A stretch of DNA of 64,000 nt from Planctomycetota bacterium. Lineage in GTDB: Bacteria; Planctomycetota; Planctomycetia; Planctomycetales; Planctomycetaceae. The notes beneath the pieces are model-generated. The model was not told the origin of the DNA and did not search any database. It worked only from the letters and a program-made list of their open reading frames with translations. The translations under genes were made by a program, and so were the position numbers. Shown in pieces: positions 1,457-36,552 of the stretch (within the stretch, counting starts at the first letter, position 1; each line of letters starts with the position of its first letter). The stretch lies in the NCBI GenBank assembly GCA_027618475.1, contig JAQCEJ010000005.1, positions 1 through 64,000 on the forward strand, given 5' to 3'.

Positions 1457-1547
1457 TTTACGGTAGATCCGGCCCGGTCGACTCGTGATAATGGACATTC
1501 CGGCGTCAAGACAGCGCCGGCCGATTCCATTCGAGGAGCCCGAGCCG

Positions 1548-4500
1548 ATGCTGAAGCTGCGATTATTTGTTTGTGCGTTCATGCTGATCCCTCTCGTTGT
1601 GACAACAACTCTTGTCGCGACGGAAGAAATTCCTGCCGAAATCGAATTCAATCGCGACATTCGACCACTGTTGTCGGACCATTGCTTTGCCTGTCACGGG
1701 CCCGATAAAAACAAACGCGAGGCTGATCTCCGGCTCGATACCGAAGTGGGGATTCTAGGGGGAGACGAGTCGTCCGGAATCGTCAAACCGGGCGAACCGG
1801 AGGCAAGCGAACTCTGGAACCGCGTCTCGACCGACGATTTTTTGCTCAAAATGCCCCCGACCGATTTTGGAAAAGACCTGTCGCCTCGCGACCTGAAATT
1901 ACTCAAACGCTGGATCGAACAGGGTGCGAAATGGGAAGGGCATTGGTCGTTCGAACCGATTCGCCGGCCCGACATTCCCGCAGTCACGGCAGCACACCCG
2001 ATCGATGCGTTCATCGTTGCGGAGTTGGAAACCGAAGGACTCAAGCCATCGGCTCCGGCGGAAAAAGAAACGCTCATCCGCCGTGTGACATTCGATCTGA
2101 CCGGCCTTCCGCCGACACCCGACGAAGTTGCGGCGTTTCTCGACGATGATTCGGACGTTGCGTACGAACGCGTCGTCGATCGTTTGCTCGCATCACCTCG
2201 CTACGGCGAGCGAATGGCGATGTGGTGGCTCGATCTCGTGCGATACGCCGACAGCGTCGGCTATCACGGCGACCAGCCGGTGAGCGTGTTCGCCTTTCGC
2301 GAATATGTCATCGACTCGTTCAATCGCAATAAGCCGTTCGATCAATTTACGCTCGAACAACTTGCCGGCGATCTCTTACCCGAACCCACAACCGAGCAAC
2401 TAATTGCCTCAGGTTACAACCGCCTCGGGATGATGAGCGCCGAAGGAGGCGTGCAACCCAAAGAATATCTCGCGAAGTACATCGCCGAGCGCGTTCGCAA
2501 TCTCGGTGGAACCTGGCTGGGGGCGACGCTCGGCTGTTGCGAATGTCACGACCACAAGTACGACCCGTTTACCATGAAGGATTTCTATTCGCTCGAAGCA
2601 TTCTTCGCCGACATCGAAGAACATGGACTTTACAGCGGCGCTCACGCGACCGGAGCCTGGGGCCCGCAGATCAAGTTGCCGTCAGCCGCACAACAGCAGG
2701 AACTCGCCCGACTGCAACAGGAGATCGCCGACGCAACAACGACGTTGAAGACGCCGACCCCCGAACTCGATCAGGCACAGAACGAATGGGAAAGCTCATT
2801 CCCCCGCTGGACGCCGCTGACCCCCGCGACCTTCTCTGCGGCCAACGGTTCGCAGTTGACTCTCCAGGATGATGCATCGCTTCTCGCGAGCGGACCGCGG
2901 CCCGACACCGAGACGTACACCGTCGTCATCGAAAACCCTCCTGCCGGTGTCTCGGCCATTCGGTTGGATGTCCTCCCCGACGAATCGCTCCCGGCGAAGG
3001 GGGCCGGTCGGGCCGATGGCGGTAATTTTGTATTATCCGAATTCGCGGTCAACGTCTCCGCGTCGGGAGAATCTCCCACCGAATCGGTCACGTTGCAGAA
3101 TGCGTCGGCGTCTTACGAGCAACCGCATCCCGAAGATAAGGGGACGCCTGGAAAATTCAGCGCAACAGCATCGATCGACGGCGACAAAGACGGCGCGACG
3201 CCGGGCTGGGCGATTCAAGAAAAAGTGACCGAACCGCAACACGCGGTCTTCGAACCGGTGAACGATCTTGCCGGGGGAGAGGGGGTCACATGGACGATTA
3301 CGCTCAATCAGAATTATTCGTCGGCCGGTCATCTCATCGGGCGATTTCGAATTCAGACGACATCCGCCGCGCGTCCGGTCGAGGCCTTCATCGGCGGTGC
3401 CGCGATCGAAACGATCGTTTTCACTCCGTCCGGTCAGCGAACAACCGAACAAGTAGAAGCACTCGCCGCGTACTATCGTTCGGTGTCACCGTTGCTTGAT
3501 CCGGTTCGTGCTCATTTGGCACAAGTCGAAAAAGCCCGCAACGATCTCGATCAGGCGTTGCCGACGACGTTGATCACCAAATCTGTCGAACCGCGCATGG
3601 TACGCATACTTCCGCGCGGCAACTGGATGGACGACAAAGGCGATCCCCTCGCGCCGGCGTTTCCCGGCATTTTGCCTCAAGGCGAATCAACATCCTCTTC
3701 GCGAATGACGCGCGTCGATCTGGCGAACTGGATCACCTCAGCGGAGAATCCGCTTACTGCCCGCGTCTTCGCCAATCGAATGTGGAAACTCTTCTTCGGT
3801 GCCGGGCTTAGCCGTCGCATCGACGATCTCGGTGCACAGGGAGAATGGCCGAGCCATCCGCAGTTGCTCGATTATCTCGCCGGGCGGTTCATCGATTCGG
3901 GCTGGAATGTCAAACAGCTCGTTAAAGAAATCGTGATGTCGCGTGCGTATCGGCAGACATCGCTCGTCGATCCCACGTTGCGAGAACTTGATCCTGCGAA
4001 TCGACTTCTGGCACGGCAGGGACGGTTTCGTTTCGACGCCGAGACGGTTCGCGACAACGCATTGGCTGTCAGCGGACTGCTCGTGGAAGAGGTTGGTGGG
4101 CCGAGCGTCAAACCGTATCAGCCGCCGGGGTATTGGGCTTATCTCAACTTTCCAGCGCGCGAATGGCAAAACAGCAGCGGTGCTGAGTTATACCGCCGCG
4201 GTTTGTACACGCATTGGCAACGGCAGTATCTGCATCCGTCGCTGCTGGCGTTCGACGCTCCCAGCCGTGAAGAATGCACCGCCGAGCGATCCCGCTCGAA
4301 TACGCCGCTGCAATCGCTGGTGTTGCTCAACGATCCGTCGTACGTAGAGGCCTCGCGAGCCTTCGCCGAGTCGATCATCCGCCAGGGAGGAACGTCGACA
4401 CACGAACGACTCGACTGGGCATTTCATCGGGCTTTATCACGCTCGATACGCCCGCAGGAACGGGAAGTCCTCGAAGAATTATTCGCGTCGCATCTCTCCG

Positions 4501-4649
4501 AATATCAAGCCGATCAAGAGTCTGCAAAGCAACTGATCTCCGTCGGCAACCATCAGGACTCCGACGAAGTCGATGCCGCAGAACTCGCCGCGTGGACAAA
4601 CGTCGCCAGAACGATATTCAATCTGCACGAGTTCATCACGCGGAATTGA
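1548..4649 (+). CDS. Secreted DUF1549/DUF1553 protein with N-terminal cytochrome-c-like motif (PSCyt1/PSD1)
   Basis: Large secreted protein (1033 residues) of a family expanded in Planctomycetota; its biochemistry is unproven and a role in carbohydrate or C1 oxidation is only proposed. The start at 1548 is chosen because GAGGAG lies about 10 bases upstream and a signal peptide (MLKLRLFVCAFMLIP) follows at once; the frame is open for 21 more codons upstream. A PSCyt1 domain has CFACH (residues 46-50), fitting covalent haem c. DUF1549 follows (about 125-340, with RYGERMAMWWLDLVRYAD), then a middle beta-rich segment, then DUF1553 (about 690-960, with NPLTARVFANRMWKLFFG). Such genes normally sit directly before a DUF1501 gene; here that partner starts at 5384 but a GxxExxY gene lies between. 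Confidence 0.92.
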   Translation: MLKLRLFVCAFMLIPLVVTTTLVATEEIPAEIEFNRDIRPLLSDHCFACHGPDKNKREADLRLDTEVGILGGDESSGIVKPGEPEASELWNRVSTDDFLLKMPPTDFGKDLSPRDLKLLKRWIEQGAKWEGHWSFEPIRRPDIPAVTAAHPIDAFIVAELETEGLKPSAPAEKETLIRRVTFDLTGLPPTPDEVAAFLDDDSDVAYERVVDRLLASPRYGERMAMWWLDLVRYADSVGYHGDQPVSVFAFREYVIDSFNRNKPFDQFTLEQLAGDLLPEPTTEQLIASGYNRLGMMSAEGGVQPKEYLAKYIAERVRNLGGTWLGATLGCCECHDHKYDPFTMKDFYSLEAFFADIEEHGLYSGAHATGAWGPQIKLPSAAQQQELARLQQEIADATTTLKTPTPELDQAQNEWESSFPRWTPLTPATFSAANGSQLTLQDDASLLASGPRPDTETYTVVIENPPAGVSAIRLDVLPDESLPAKGAGRADGGNFVLSEFAVNVSASGESPTESVTLQNASASYEQPHPEDKGTPGKFSATASIDGDKDGATPGWAIQEKVTEPQHAVFEPVNDLAGGEGVTWTITLNQNYSSAGHLIGRFRIQTTSAARPVEAFIGGAAIETIVFTPSGQRTTEQVEALAAYYRSVSPLLDPVRAHLAQVEKARNDLDQALPTTLITKSVEPRMVRILPRGNWMDDKGDPLAPAFPGILPQGESTSSSRMTRVDLANWITSAENPLTARVFANRMWKLFFGAGLSRRIDDLGAQGEWPSHPQLLDYLAGRFIDSGWNVKQLVKEIVMSRAYRQTSLVDPTLRELDPANRLLARQGRFRFDAETVRDNALAVSGLLVEEVGGPSVKPYQPPGYWAYLNFPAREWQNSSGAELYRRGLYTHWQRQYLHPSLLAFDAPSREECTAERSRSNTPLQSLVLLNDPSYVEASRAFAESIIRQGGTSTHERLDWAFHRALSRSIRPQEREVLEELFASHLSEYQADQESAKQLISVGNHQDSDEVDAAELAAWTNVARTIFNLHEFITRN

Positions 4650-4672: not shown

Positions 4673-4703
4673 GTCCGCAGATTTTCGCAGAGGAGCGCAG
4701 ATG
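4673..4703 (+). repeat. Inverted repeat (left copy), family B, beside GxxExxY gene
   Basis: GTCCGCAGATTTTCGCAGAG followed by GAGCGCAGATG. It is the inverted counterpart of 5317-5348; similarity continues weakly inward to about 4725 (tgaagag). A solo copy lies at 36470-36500. Confidence 0.8.
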
Positions 4704-4728
4704 GAAAAGCAATTTGAAGAGGTAGAAA

Positions 4729-5157
4729 ATGGGTGAAAGGGCTGGTCCAGATCAGCGAGATCCCAAAACATATGCCATTATTGGAGCGGCGATGGCCGTT
4801 CATCGCGAATTGGGTTATGACTTCTCAGAGCCGATTTATCAGGAGGCATTAGCGGTGGAGTTTTTCCATCGGCAAATCCCCTTTGAAAAAGAAAAAATGG
4901 TTTGGGTTTATTATCACAACGTAAAACTCGAATCGTGTTATCGGGCCGATTTTGTTTGTTACGAAGACGTTATTGTAGAACTCAAAGCCCTGGCGGGATT
5001 CGACCCTGCACACGAAGCTCAGCTGATTAACTATCTGAAAGCCACCCGGCTTGAATACGGCCTACTGCTCAACTTCGGCACCAGCAAACTTCAATACAAA
5101 AGAATGATCTTGTCAAAAGACTACAAGCAGTTTCATAACCCTCTGGACGGCGGATAA
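4729..5157 (+). CDS. GxxExxY protein (PD-(D/E)XK nuclease-like, PDDEXK_3)
   Basis: A 142-residue GxxExxY-family protein, a group assigned by fold to the PD-(D/E)XK nuclease superfamily but with no established function. The name motif is seen as DFSEPIY (Glu34, Tyr37), with Asp where Gly is usual. The probable catalytic set is Asp74 (YRADFV) with Glu84 and Lys86 (VELKA), followed by the typical HEAQLINYLKAT (95-106) and GLLLNFG (111-117). The full length and intact motifs argue it is functional. GAGGTAGAAA precedes the ATG. It sits alone between two genes that usually adjoin and is bracketed by inverted repeats at 4673-4703 and 5317-5348, suggesting arrival as a unit of about 680 bp. Codon use looks more AT-rich than its neighbours. 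Confidence 0.88.
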   Translation: MGERAGPDQRDPKTYAIIGAAMAVHRELGYDFSEPIYQEALAVEFFHRQIPFEKEKMVWVYYHNVKLESCYRADFVCYEDVIVELKALAGFDPAHEAQLINYLKATRLEYGLLLNFGTSKLQYKRMILSKDYKQFHNPLDGG

Positions 5158-5316
5158 TTCCGGACAATTTGGATGATTATTCCGTCGCCAACCGGGTTAT
5201 GAAACCAGTTCTATCAACATCCTTCTGGACAATTCTCAGAAGAAGACCGTTTGTAGGCAGATGATCACATAACGAGACAACCTGAAGAGATAAAAGAACT
5301 CTTCATATTTGCCTTG

Positions 5317-5348
5317 CCCTCTGCGCTCATCTGCGAAAATCTGCGGAC
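5317..5348 (-). repeat. Inverted repeat (right copy), family B
   Basis: Reverse complement reads GTCCGCAGATTTTCGCAGAT then GAGCGCAGAGGG, matching the left copy at 4673-4703 in nearly every base. It lies in the short leader of the DUF1501 gene. No target-site duplication is obvious outside the pair. Confidence 0.8.
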
Positions 5349-5383: not shown

Positions 5384-6829
5384 ATGACGCATTATTCTTT
5401 TCTCCCGTCCCCGATTGCCCGGAGATCGTTTCTGTGGAATTCCGGGGTTAGTCTTGGGTCGATGGCATTGGCGTCGCTAGGGGGGAAGCCCGCTTCGAAT
5501 GCCGCACCACCGTCGAAGGGGCTCTCGGCTCCGCGCGGTATGCTGTCGCCGTTGCATCATTCGCCGCGGGCCAAACGGATTATCTGGCTCTACATGGCGG
5601 GAGGAATGAGTCACCTCGAAACGTTTGACGATAAACCGTCGTTGCGAAAGCGGGATGGCGAGCCGATGCCCGAATCGATTACGGCGGGACAGCAGATCGC
5701 TCAATTGCAGGGGCAGCAACTCAAGGTGCTCGCGCCGCAACATCGGTTTTTGCCGTGGGGAAGCTCGGGGCTCCGTATCAGCGAAATCTGGCCGATGCTT
5801 GGGGAATACTGCGCCGATGAGATGTGCATGGTTCATTCGCTGTTTACCGAGGCGATCAATCACGATCCCGCACACACGTTTATGAACACCGGTACGATGA
5901 ACGCAGGCAGACCCGCCGCCGGAAGCTGGCTCTGGTACGGTCTTGGCAGCGATGCCGACAATCTTCCCGGGTTTGTAGTGATGGTTTCGACGGGGAAGTG
6001 GGGACAAAAGCAGCCAATCGCCGCCCGGCAATGGCATAGCGGCTTTCTCCCCAGCAAGTATCAGGGGGTCGAGTTTCGCGGCACTGGCGACCCGGTGCTG
6101 TACCTGAGCAATCCCAGCGGAGTATCGGCGAAACAGCAGCGTGACGTGGTCGACGCCGTGCAGAAACTCAATCAGATCGAAGATAACATCGTTGCCGATC
6201 CGGAGATCGCCACGCGGATCAGCCAGTACGAACTCGCTTTCAAGATGCAGACGGCGATCCCCGAGTTGAAAGATTTCGCAGACGAGCCCGAACACATTCT
6301 CAATTTATACGGCACGACAGGTGGTGATGGTTCGTTTGCGTCGAACTGTCTTTTGGCCCGGAGGCTCGCCGAACGTGGCGTGCGGTTCATTCAGTTGTAT
6401 CATCGCGACTGGGACCATCACGGTGCGGTCAAAGAACATAGTGCGGGGACGGCGGCGGAAGTCGATCGGGGAGTGGCGGCACTCATCGTCGATCTCAAGC
6501 AGCGCGGTCTGCTCGATGATACGATCATCGTGTTCGGTTCGGAGTTCGGACGCACGCCGATGGCGCAGGGGAACGGCCGCGACCATCATCTCGCCGGATT
6601 CACGATGTGGTTCGCCGGTGGAGGATTTAAGGGGGGGACAAGTTACGGTGCGACCGACGAATTCGGTTACCGTGCGGTCGAAAACCGGACGTCGGTGCAC
6701 GACGTGCATGCCACGCTGCTGCATTTGATGGGGATCGATCACCATCGATTTTCGGTGAAATCCCAGGGTCTCGATTCAAGACTCACAGGTGTCGAACCGG
6801 CTCGCGTGGTAAATGAAATTCTGGCGTGA
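5384..6829 (+). CDS. Tat-exported DUF1501 protein
   Basis: A 481-residue DUF1501 protein, related by fold to alkaline phosphatase/sulfatase-type enzymes; planctomycetes pair it with DUF1549/DUF1553 proteins, as here with the gene ending at 4649. The start at 5384 has CGGAG upstream and places a twin-arginine signal (ARRSFLWNSGVSLGSMALASL) at residues 12-32; the open frame upstream is repeat sequence. Family hallmarks include IIWLYMAGGMSHLETFDDKP (65-84), DHDPAHTFMNTG-like text near 165, DWDHHG near 360 and the late FGSEFGRTPMAQGNGRDHHL block that carries likely metal ligands. Expected location is the periplasm after export by the Tat system, whose TatC is encoded at 9269-10435. The gene ends 9 bases from the convergent methyltransferase. 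Confidence 0.92.
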   Translation: MTHYSFLPSPIARRSFLWNSGVSLGSMALASLGGKPASNAAPPSKGLSAPRGMLSPLHHSPRAKRIIWLYMAGGMSHLETFDDKPSLRKRDGEPMPESITAGQQIAQLQGQQLKVLAPQHRFLPWGSSGLRISEIWPMLGEYCADEMCMVHSLFTEAINHDPAHTFMNTGTMNAGRPAAGSWLWYGLGSDADNLPGFVVMVSTGKWGQKQPIAARQWHSGFLPSKYQGVEFRGTGDPVLYLSNPSGVSAKQQRDVVDAVQKLNQIEDNIVADPEIATRISQYELAFKMQTAIPELKDFADEPEHILNLYGTTGGDGSFASNCLLARRLAERGVRFIQLYHRDWDHHGAVKEHSAGTAAEVDRGVAALIVDLKQRGLLDDTIIVFGSEFGRTPMAQGNGRDHHLAGFTMWFAGGGFKGGTSYGATDEFGYRAVENRTSVHDVHATLLHLMGIDHHRFSVKSQGLDSRLTGVEPARVVNEILA

Positions 6830-35225: not shown

Positions 35226-36461
35226 ATGCTGTCTCTTCGCCTGAATTCTCTGCTGGCTTCGACTCTGTTGCTTTCGGCGTTCGCCTCGCTCGATGCCGCT
35301 GAGCCCGATGCGGTCATCACCAGCGGCGGACTGAAATTCGCCGAGCGGTTGATGTGGCCCGATGGGGGGTATGTTTACGGGATCACGGCGACTGATATCG
35401 ACGGCGACGGTGATCTCGATTTTTCGAGTGCCGGGGTGCATACCGATATGCTCCTCTGGCATGAAAACGACGGCGAAGAGAACTTCACAAAGCACATCAT
35501 CTGCGACAACGAACCGGGGTATCTCGAACGTCATGCGTTCGGTGACATCAACGGGGACGGCACGCTCGATGTCGTGATGGTCAAAAACAAAATCGGCCAT
35601 CTCGTCTGGTGGGAAAACAACGGCACACCGGGTGATGGCAAGCTCTGGGGACGCCATGTCATCACCACCGACTTCATGCGGGCCTATGATGTGGCGCTGA
35701 TGGATCTCGACGATGACGGGGATCTCGACGTCGCCGCCTCGGCTTACACCGGCGATTGTTTCTCGTGGTTCGAGAACCCCGGTCCGAAAGGTTTTGACAA
35801 CGAATGGAAGCAATACAAATTCGACAGCGATAAAGAGTTCGCCAATACCCGAACGGTCGCGTTTGCTGATTTCAATGGCGACGGCAAACCCGATCTGCTC
35901 GGCACGGGAACCTACGGCAACAAGACGCTGTGGTACGAAAACACCGGCAAGGCAGGAGTGAAGAAATTCAGCCGTAACATCATCGATGACAAACTGCTGA
36001 TGCCTGCGCACGGACATCCGGTCGATATGGACGATGACGGCGATATCGACATCGTCATGGCGGGGGGAATGCGTGTCTCCACGACCGAAAAAGAACAATC
36101 GCATCAGGCGGTCTGGTATGAAAACGTCGGCTCACCCGGCAGAGGTAGCGAATGGACCAGACACTTTGTCGGGCACCTCGACTTTGGTCTCGAAGCGGTC
36201 GTCGGCGATCTCGACGGCGATGGTGACATCGATGTGATCGCTACGGGATGCGACGGCGGACAGCCGGGCGTCGGCGAAGTGTCGTGGTTCGAGAACACCG
36301 GCGACCTGAAGGGGGAATGGAAGAAGCACGTTTTGAGGATGTATCCGCGCGCCGCGCAGGTCATCGTGATGGACATGGACGAAGACGGCAATCTCGACAT
36401 CGCCGCGAGTTCAGAAGCGGGGACGTTTTACTGGTGGCGGAATCTGGGGTCTGCAAAATGA
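35226..36461 (+). CDS. Secreted FG-GAP/VCBS-repeat seven-bladed propeller protein
   Basis: 411 residues. Signal peptide 1-23 (LASTLLLSAFASLDA). Seven repeats of about 50 residues each hold a Ca2+-binding DxDxDGxxD loop: TDIDGDGDLDF, GDINGDGTLDV, MDLDDDGDLDV, ADFNGDGKPDL, VDMDDDGDIDI, GDLDGDGDIDV and MDMDEDGNLDI, each followed by a strand and then a WxExx motif (WHENDG, WWENNG, WFENPG, WYENTG, WYENVG, WFENTG). This matches FG-GAP/VCBS propellers used for binding at the cell surface; no catalytic residues are expected. It is divergent from the Cys-peptide/sigma operon. Seven repeats would make one closed propeller. Confidence 0.93.
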   Translation: MLSLRLNSLLASTLLLSAFASLDAAEPDAVITSGGLKFAERLMWPDGGYVYGITATDIDGDGDLDFSSAGVHTDMLLWHENDGEENFTKHIICDNEPGYLERHAFGDINGDGTLDVVMVKNKIGHLVWWENNGTPGDGKLWGRHVITTDFMRAYDVALMDLDDDGDLDVAASAYTGDCFSWFENPGPKGFDNEWKQYKFDSDKEFANTRTVAFADFNGDGKPDLLGTGTYGNKTLWYENTGKAGVKKFSRNIIDDKLLMPAHGHPVDMDDDGDIDIVMAGGMRVSTTEKEQSHQAVWYENVGSPGRGSEWTRHFVGHLDFGLEAVVGDLDGDGDIDVIATGCDGGQPGVGEVSWFENTGDLKGEWKKHVLRMYPRAAQVIVMDMDEDGNLDIAASSEAGTFYWWRNLGSAK

Positions 36462-36469
36462 AGACGACT

Positions 36470-36500
36470 GTCCGCAGATTTTCGCAGAGGAACGCAGATG
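36470..36500 (+). repeat. Solo copy of family B repeat
   Basis: GTCCGCAGATTTTCGCAGAG followed by GAACGCAGATG, 30 of 31 bases as in the copy beside the GxxExxY gene at 4673. It starts nine bases after the propeller gene stop. No GxxExxY gene is nearby. Confidence 0.85.
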
Positions 36501-36519: not shown

Positions 36520-36552
36520 TGCCACAAAAAACGCAAATGACGCAAAAAAAAT
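36520..36552 (+). repeat. Word-like repeat, family C (CACAAAAAACGCAAATGACG)
   Basis: GCCACAAAAAACGCAAATGA then CGCAAAAAAAA. Related to GGCCGCAATAATCGCAAAGG at 48150-48185. An inverted TTTTTGCGT occurs about 35 bases downstream (36581-36589), so transcripts could fold here and end the convergent genes. Confidence 0.6.

Follow-up and report, generated by a model that had tools for sequence, protein, structure and literature searches.

In the 64,000-nucleotide stretch of a Planctomycetota bacterium genome analysed here (the window), a small gene of the GxxExxY family lies between two inverted repeats, in the gap between a DUF1553-type and a DUF1501 gene. GxxExxY is a curated family to which no function has so far been assigned, and the locus raises the question of what such a gene does between repeats in the middle of an operon. 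A sequence-only reading of the window had proposed a small mobile unit, with the encoded nuclease as mover, as repeat-binding protein or as defence component.

Anatomy of the element and its gene

We searched 20 relatives, none listed as the same genus, for an empty site of this operon. The same gene pair was found in order in 12 relatives, with a gap of −16 to 270 bp that holds no insert and in no case one of the GxxExxY type, compared with 735 bp here; the two host genes are thus normally adjacent, as had been supposed. The features of the element are given in Table 1. Its arms are 40 nt each, 90% complementary and separated by 596 nt, so that the bracketing inverted repeats are real, but the length of 31–32 bases first given for them was slightly too short. 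The arm spelled out reads CGCAGAT-ttt-CGCAGAg-gag-CGCAGA, with units 10 bp apart. Terminal inverted repeats, a classical feature of IS and MITE elements, are therefore present, and GxxExxY is the only gene between them; no DDE transposase was found there. An Rfam search of the window matched no known RNA element. The separate palindromic repeat of about 93 bp had gone unnoticed in the sequence-only reading; it has inserted at the 3' end of the GxxExxY gene and supplies the final codons and the stop, and related copies were also seen within two gene-less elements (L016, L261).

Table 1. Positions of the features in the window.
Feature	Positions	Strand	Remarks
Whole element	4673..5348	+	676 bp; between DUF1553-type and DUF1501 genes, co-directional with both
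Left inverted arm	4673..4712	+	three CGCAGAN units, 10-bp spacing; outer end GTCCGCAG
Right inverted arm	5309..5348	-	three minus-strand CGCAGAN units; outer end CTGCGGAC
GxxExxY gene	4729..5157	+	142 aa, predicted RecB/Cas4-like PD-(D/E)XK nuclease (E34, D74, E84, K86, Q98, Y102)
Upstream host gene PSCyt1-DUF1549-DUF1553	1485..4649	+	profile search
Downstream host gene DUF1501	5384..6829	+	profile search
Separate ~93-bp palindromic repeat	5121..5213	+	at 3' end of GxxExxY gene; ~42 genome copies
Solo left end, CGCAGAN family	36472..36498	+	right partner lost; GCAAA-type repeat end at 36523-36546 in the remnant

A third, gene-less solo copy had been noted near 36470. This copy is real: we found one intact left end there, 9 bp past the stop of ORF 35226-36461, without an intact right partner and with a second repeat family nested inside. 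The units of this additional family are GCCGCAAAAA..CGCAAAA. Its copies lie within CGCAGAT elements (L020, L018, L259, L261; window 36523-36546) and in L261 enclose the palindromic repeat themselves; its unit is carried by neither of the assembly's two GxxExxY genes.

The encoded protein matches the TIGR04256 profile with 135.4 bits (cut-off 35) and the PF13366 (PDDEXK_3) profile with 130.2 bits (cut-off 22). In 68 homologues E34, D74, E84, K86, H95, Q98, N101 and Y102 do not vary, which bears out the intact Asp74/Glu84/Lys86 of the sequence-only reading, and the residue pattern is that of RecB/Cas4-type PD-(D/E)XK nucleases with QxxxY, pointing to an intact predicted active site. The AF2 model (pLDDT 90) has Cas4 SSO0001 (4ic1) as its best structural match (Z 9.8); lambda exonuclease was also matched, and fold matches below this Cas4/lambda-exonuclease group cannot be told apart from a common arrangement. 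All 68 members match PDDEXK_3, with Cas4 as second Pfam family for 28 of them, and no HuH (Y1) transposase is among the families listed for the 68. A sequence search yielded no relatives with solved structures. GxxExxY shares with Cas4, lambda exonuclease and RecB the fold and the order of the active site (E, D, ExK, QxxxY), whereas it is a stand-alone short gene with repeats of its own and not a CRISPR or recombination partner. The family is present in about half of the sampled planctomycete genomes and in many other phyla.

Gene-less copies and the association of protein and repeat

Across the 5.93-Mb genome the 17-mer end yielded 61 matches (≤2 mismatches) compared with 0 for the reversed control, and is thus more frequent than expected by chance. 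From the loci read, 23 inverted pairs were obtained, namely the window copy and at least 22 without a gene. The gene-less pairs measure 70–357 bp from end to end, have the same ends as the gene copy of the window and lie in short intergenic gaps; they are symmetrical and are present in convergent gaps too. Only two GxxExxY genes were identified in the assembly. The CGCAGAN family has one gene-bearing copy, and the second gene (C190) is adjoined by a hairpin of a different unit, CACGAAN. Gene and repeats are hence not always together within this genome (about one gene copy per at least 20 pairs), as expected of a source copy with gene-less derivatives, but they are associated across phyla. No repeatable duplication of 2–8 bp was seen at offsets 0–8 in 16 gene-less elements of this genome, which suggests that they do not arise by standard DDE transposition. 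Some IS families are exempt from target-site duplication, so that its absence weakens, but does not exclude, membership in the classical IS/MITE group.

GxxExxY loci were sampled from planctomycetes and from 80 named genome records of many phyla. Among the 144 loci with both flanks, inverted arms scored ≥13 in 80% (4.8% of mispaired flanks) and ≥18 in 52% (0.7% of mispaired flanks), while windows shifted by 1–2 kb gave 0–4%. The arms nearly always comprise three (sometimes four) tandem CRCnnA units at a spacing of 8–10 bp, the outermost preceded by AC. Complete elements with three units per arm at both ends (n = 61) have a median length of 464 bp, and the median distance of their arms is 18 bp to the start codon and 9 bp to the stop codon. 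The unit letters vary by locus (CACAGAG, CACGGAT, CACTAAT, CGCAGAT, CACGAAA and others), with 84% of the variable letters shared among units of one arm compared with 44% between loci. Agreement between the two arms of one element is 93% at unit positions and 60% at spacer positions, where unit positions 1, 3 and 6 are fixed by the search pattern and the remaining unit positions agree to 69–98%. Regarding gene orientation in tandem gene pairs, 76 of 82 copies are co-directional with their neighbours and 6 are opposed, which fits expression by read-through. Stops or frameshifts were found in the GxxExxY gene at several loci, as expected of decaying mobile copies.

Protein identity is correlated with the unit letters (Mantel r 0.46, a value that none of 2000 permutations reached). 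The correlation is also seen when pairs are restricted to different phyla (r 0.35, null sd 0.03) and when letters are shuffled within phylum (0.46 observed, 0.21 ± 0.03 permuted). As gene and arms are physically linked, part of this correlation is due to shared descent; unconstrained 7-letter motifs would not be expected to stay correlated at 40–60% protein identity. Within genomes the few available pairs (29) gave a covariation that 615 of 2000 permutations equalled. Residue-by-motif associations, such as one linking residues 101 and 122 to motif position 7, were corrected for phylogeny to phylum only, and we base no conclusion on them. The covariation of protein identity and unit letters supports recognition of the repeats by the protein, which would bind the units.

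At least two net generic three-unit arms are present in 105 of 139 planctomycete genomes with GxxExxY and in 20 of 155 without it (odds ratio 20.8; p = 5e-29, a nominal value because the genomes are related), and these 294 genomes hold 3781 arm copies in the GxxExxY-positive and 502 in the negative group. A distribution of the repeats independent of GxxExxY genes, which the sequence-only reading had named as one outcome that would speak against it, is not what we found. Arms can nevertheless persist without a detectable gene, since 17 negative genomes have at least five; among these is G291, which is complete and assembled in a single contig (100% complete). G291 carries 39 CACGGAG-type three-unit arms and no GxxExxY gene over threshold; either the gene was lost or the arms were moved by another protein. 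An extreme expansion was seen in G044, with 675 three-unit arms in a 12.3-Mb genome with two GxxExxY genes.

Turnover at single sites in relatives

The anammox and Brocadiaceae names and the host gene names used for the following sites are our reading of the sequences. One site lies between an RND adaptor gene and an RND pump gene. There GxxExxY type 1 with CGCAGAG arms is found in nine genomes of a single family (Brocadiaceae-type) and type 2 with CACAGAT arms in eight, the proteins being 31–39% identical between types and 76–90% within a type. Several genomes keep the type 2 arms intact with the gene deleted, one has an S23 gene with its own arms, and G317 shows a clean empty site. G168 and G258 are 96% identical over an rfb locus, yet their GxxExxY types between the RND genes differ. 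At the rfb site these two share one GxxExxY element, G321 (93–97% identical flanks) has another, and other genera are empty. What fills a cas1-cas4 gap differs by species: either of two GxxExxY types, an S23 gene, an array without a gene, or a deleted copy. The number of units differs as well, with three in G168 and four in G258. The arms follow the protein and neither the site nor the genome. At three sites in 33 relatives no base-exact excision or target junction was readable, the flanks being too diverged or the site re-used, and the comparison gave no closely related filled/empty pair whose flanks are conserved.

Two further observations were made at these sites. In G316 the GxxExxY element at the RND site (L287) contains an insertion, a small GIY-YIG-like gene flanked by inverted arms of its own (GTCATTCCCGCATGC..), possibly a third protein-repeat pair. 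In the cas1-cas4 gap of six anammox-like genomes (L323, L324, L326, L329, L330, L331) we found gene-less arrays of ~9-bp CCGTTTAAA-type units, and CCGTTTAAA-like units also flank an S23 gene in L158.

The S23 four-helix-bundle genes (TIGR02436; L151-L180) show inverted 7-bp tandem repeats at 84% of 25 loci, compared with 2% of mispaired flanks, and reach up to 25 copies per genome. They form a second protein-repeat pair and resemble GxxExxY in the inverted tandem repeats, in being multi-copy in the same genomes and in occupying the same sites in relatives (G239, G258, G168; L292, L325, L328), whereas the protein is unrelated and the units are of 7 bp. A nuclease fold is therefore not needed for a bracketed element, and the same logic with another unit may point to a guild of such elements.

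A candidate mobile element and its alternatives

We consider it likely that the locus holds a compact mobile element, made up of a lone GxxExxY nuclease gene and inverted arms of three CRCnnA units, with the protein as their cognate sequence-specific partner. This draws on what can be read in the sequences: the anatomy, the dispersal of gene-less copies, the association of gene and arms across phyla, their covariation, the empty or alternatively filled sites, the orientation bias and the invariant catalytic residues. The small mobile unit with a cognate nuclease proposed at the outset gains support from three of these, namely the gene-less copies, the cross-phylum association and the empty or alternatively filled sites. 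The GxxExxY protein would recognise its own arms as well as, acting in trans, those of gene-less copies. Its PD-(D/E)XK active site would cut DNA at or near the ends, by which the element would be copied or moved into short intergenic gaps. Promoter room is scant and transcription would probably occur by read-through from the host operon. Binding of the units, cutting as the driver of movement and the chemistry of that movement are steps that we infer.

In its logic the element is like the RAYT (TnpA-REP) and REPIN/REP system, where a small gene is associated with short inverted repeats, gene-less pairs are found, the location is extragenic and protein and repeat co-evolve; RAYTs are single-strand transposases of the HuH type, and their substrates are folded palindromic REPs (PMC3116915, PMC8266576). 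Inverted pairs, gene-less copies, extragenic location and protein-repeat covariation are shared, but GxxExxY is a PD-(D/E)XK and not a HuH protein, and the ends are three tandem units of ~8–10 bp instead of palindromes, so that it is not a member of that system. With MITE and IS elements it has in common terminal inverted repeats, short gene-less copies and an intergenic location, whereas no DDE gene was found between its arms, no target duplication was seen, and its end letters vary from locus to locus with a fixed architecture; on these data we do not count it as a classical IS or MITE.

The main rival explanation, which we regard as unlikely, is that an unrelated enzyme (an ordinary transposase elsewhere in the genome) or host replication or repair moves the arms and that GxxExxY is only a frequent cargo, perhaps aiding retention. 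S23 genes bracketed likewise by 7-bp units and the GIY-YIG-like gene with its own arms nested in one copy place several small genes in such frames, which would agree with this, as would the arms without GxxExxY in some genomes. However, the unit period is specific for each protein family (8–11 bp for GxxExxY, 7 or 14 for S23), the letters of the arms follow the GxxExxY sequence also between phyla, which is not expected of cargo, and CRCnnA arms enclose no other gene in the loci read, nested insertions aside. Very improbable, in our view, is a freestanding homing endonuclease, with GxxExxY cutting the empty intergenic allele and being copied in by recombination, and the arms as by-products or recombination substrates. 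Freestanding PD-(D/E)XK homing endonucleases are likewise small nuclease genes in gene gaps, present in some genomes and absent from others, GxxExxY persists at one site over several genera, and a weak fold match to the catalytic domain of I-Bth0305I (3r3p) was obtained; yet homing inserts only in the cognate allele, while cognate terminal arms are found here at dozens of unrelated sites per genome, and dozens to hundreds of dispersed gene-less arm pairs are unexpected for locus-specific homing.

Still less credence is given to an element of benefit to the host, in which operon expression would be tuned by the arms, either as RNA hairpins or as sites bound by protein, comparable to rRNA intervening sequences, with GxxExxY as processing factor or regulator. 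The operon-gap location, the ability of the arms to pair in RNA and the co-directional gene (76 versus 6) would suit such a role, but the inter-unit spacers are not kept complementary (60%), pairing leaves the tandem repetition within an arm unexplained, the occupancy of the sites changes from species to species, some being empty, and the gene-less copies are symmetrical and also lie in convergent gaps. Least probable of all appears a defence or toxin-antitoxin component carried between repeats. A small nuclease in variable gene gaps is compatible with it, but there is no partner gene, and the neighbours at closely read sites are ordinary operon genes, cas operons among them; PADLOC gave no defence system, no phage match was obtained and the best PHROG hit had an E-value of 0.08. 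Of the three roles first suggested for the protein, defence has found no support, repeat recognition is supported by the covariation, and the moving step would follow from the proposed cutting.

Returning to the mobile element with its cognate nuclease, GxxExxY elements may be transposable elements of a new class, with a lone RecB/Cas4-like PD-(D/E)XK nuclease that reads the three tandem units of each end and moves itself and its gene-less derivatives. Together with S23 (7-bp units) and possibly GIY-YIG elements they would make up a larger guild of very small elements between genes, every one with a cognate tandem-repeat code. We put this forward as a serious possibility without yet favouring it. 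No description of such an element was found in the openly accessible literature (subscription journals and preprints lay outside the scope), which makes the novelty provisional. The repeat letter strings were not found in the literature searched, mentions of GxxExxY were incidental with regard to function, and accession names likewise yielded nothing on function among the entries listed. To our knowledge no known transposon uses a PD-(D/E)XK nuclease alone as mover, and if the nuclease is the mover here, a new transposon chemistry would be added. The GxxExxY family gains a concrete, testable role, and the element would account for a large class of short repeats scattered in environmental genomes, with unit letters that track the protein as a natural specificity series.
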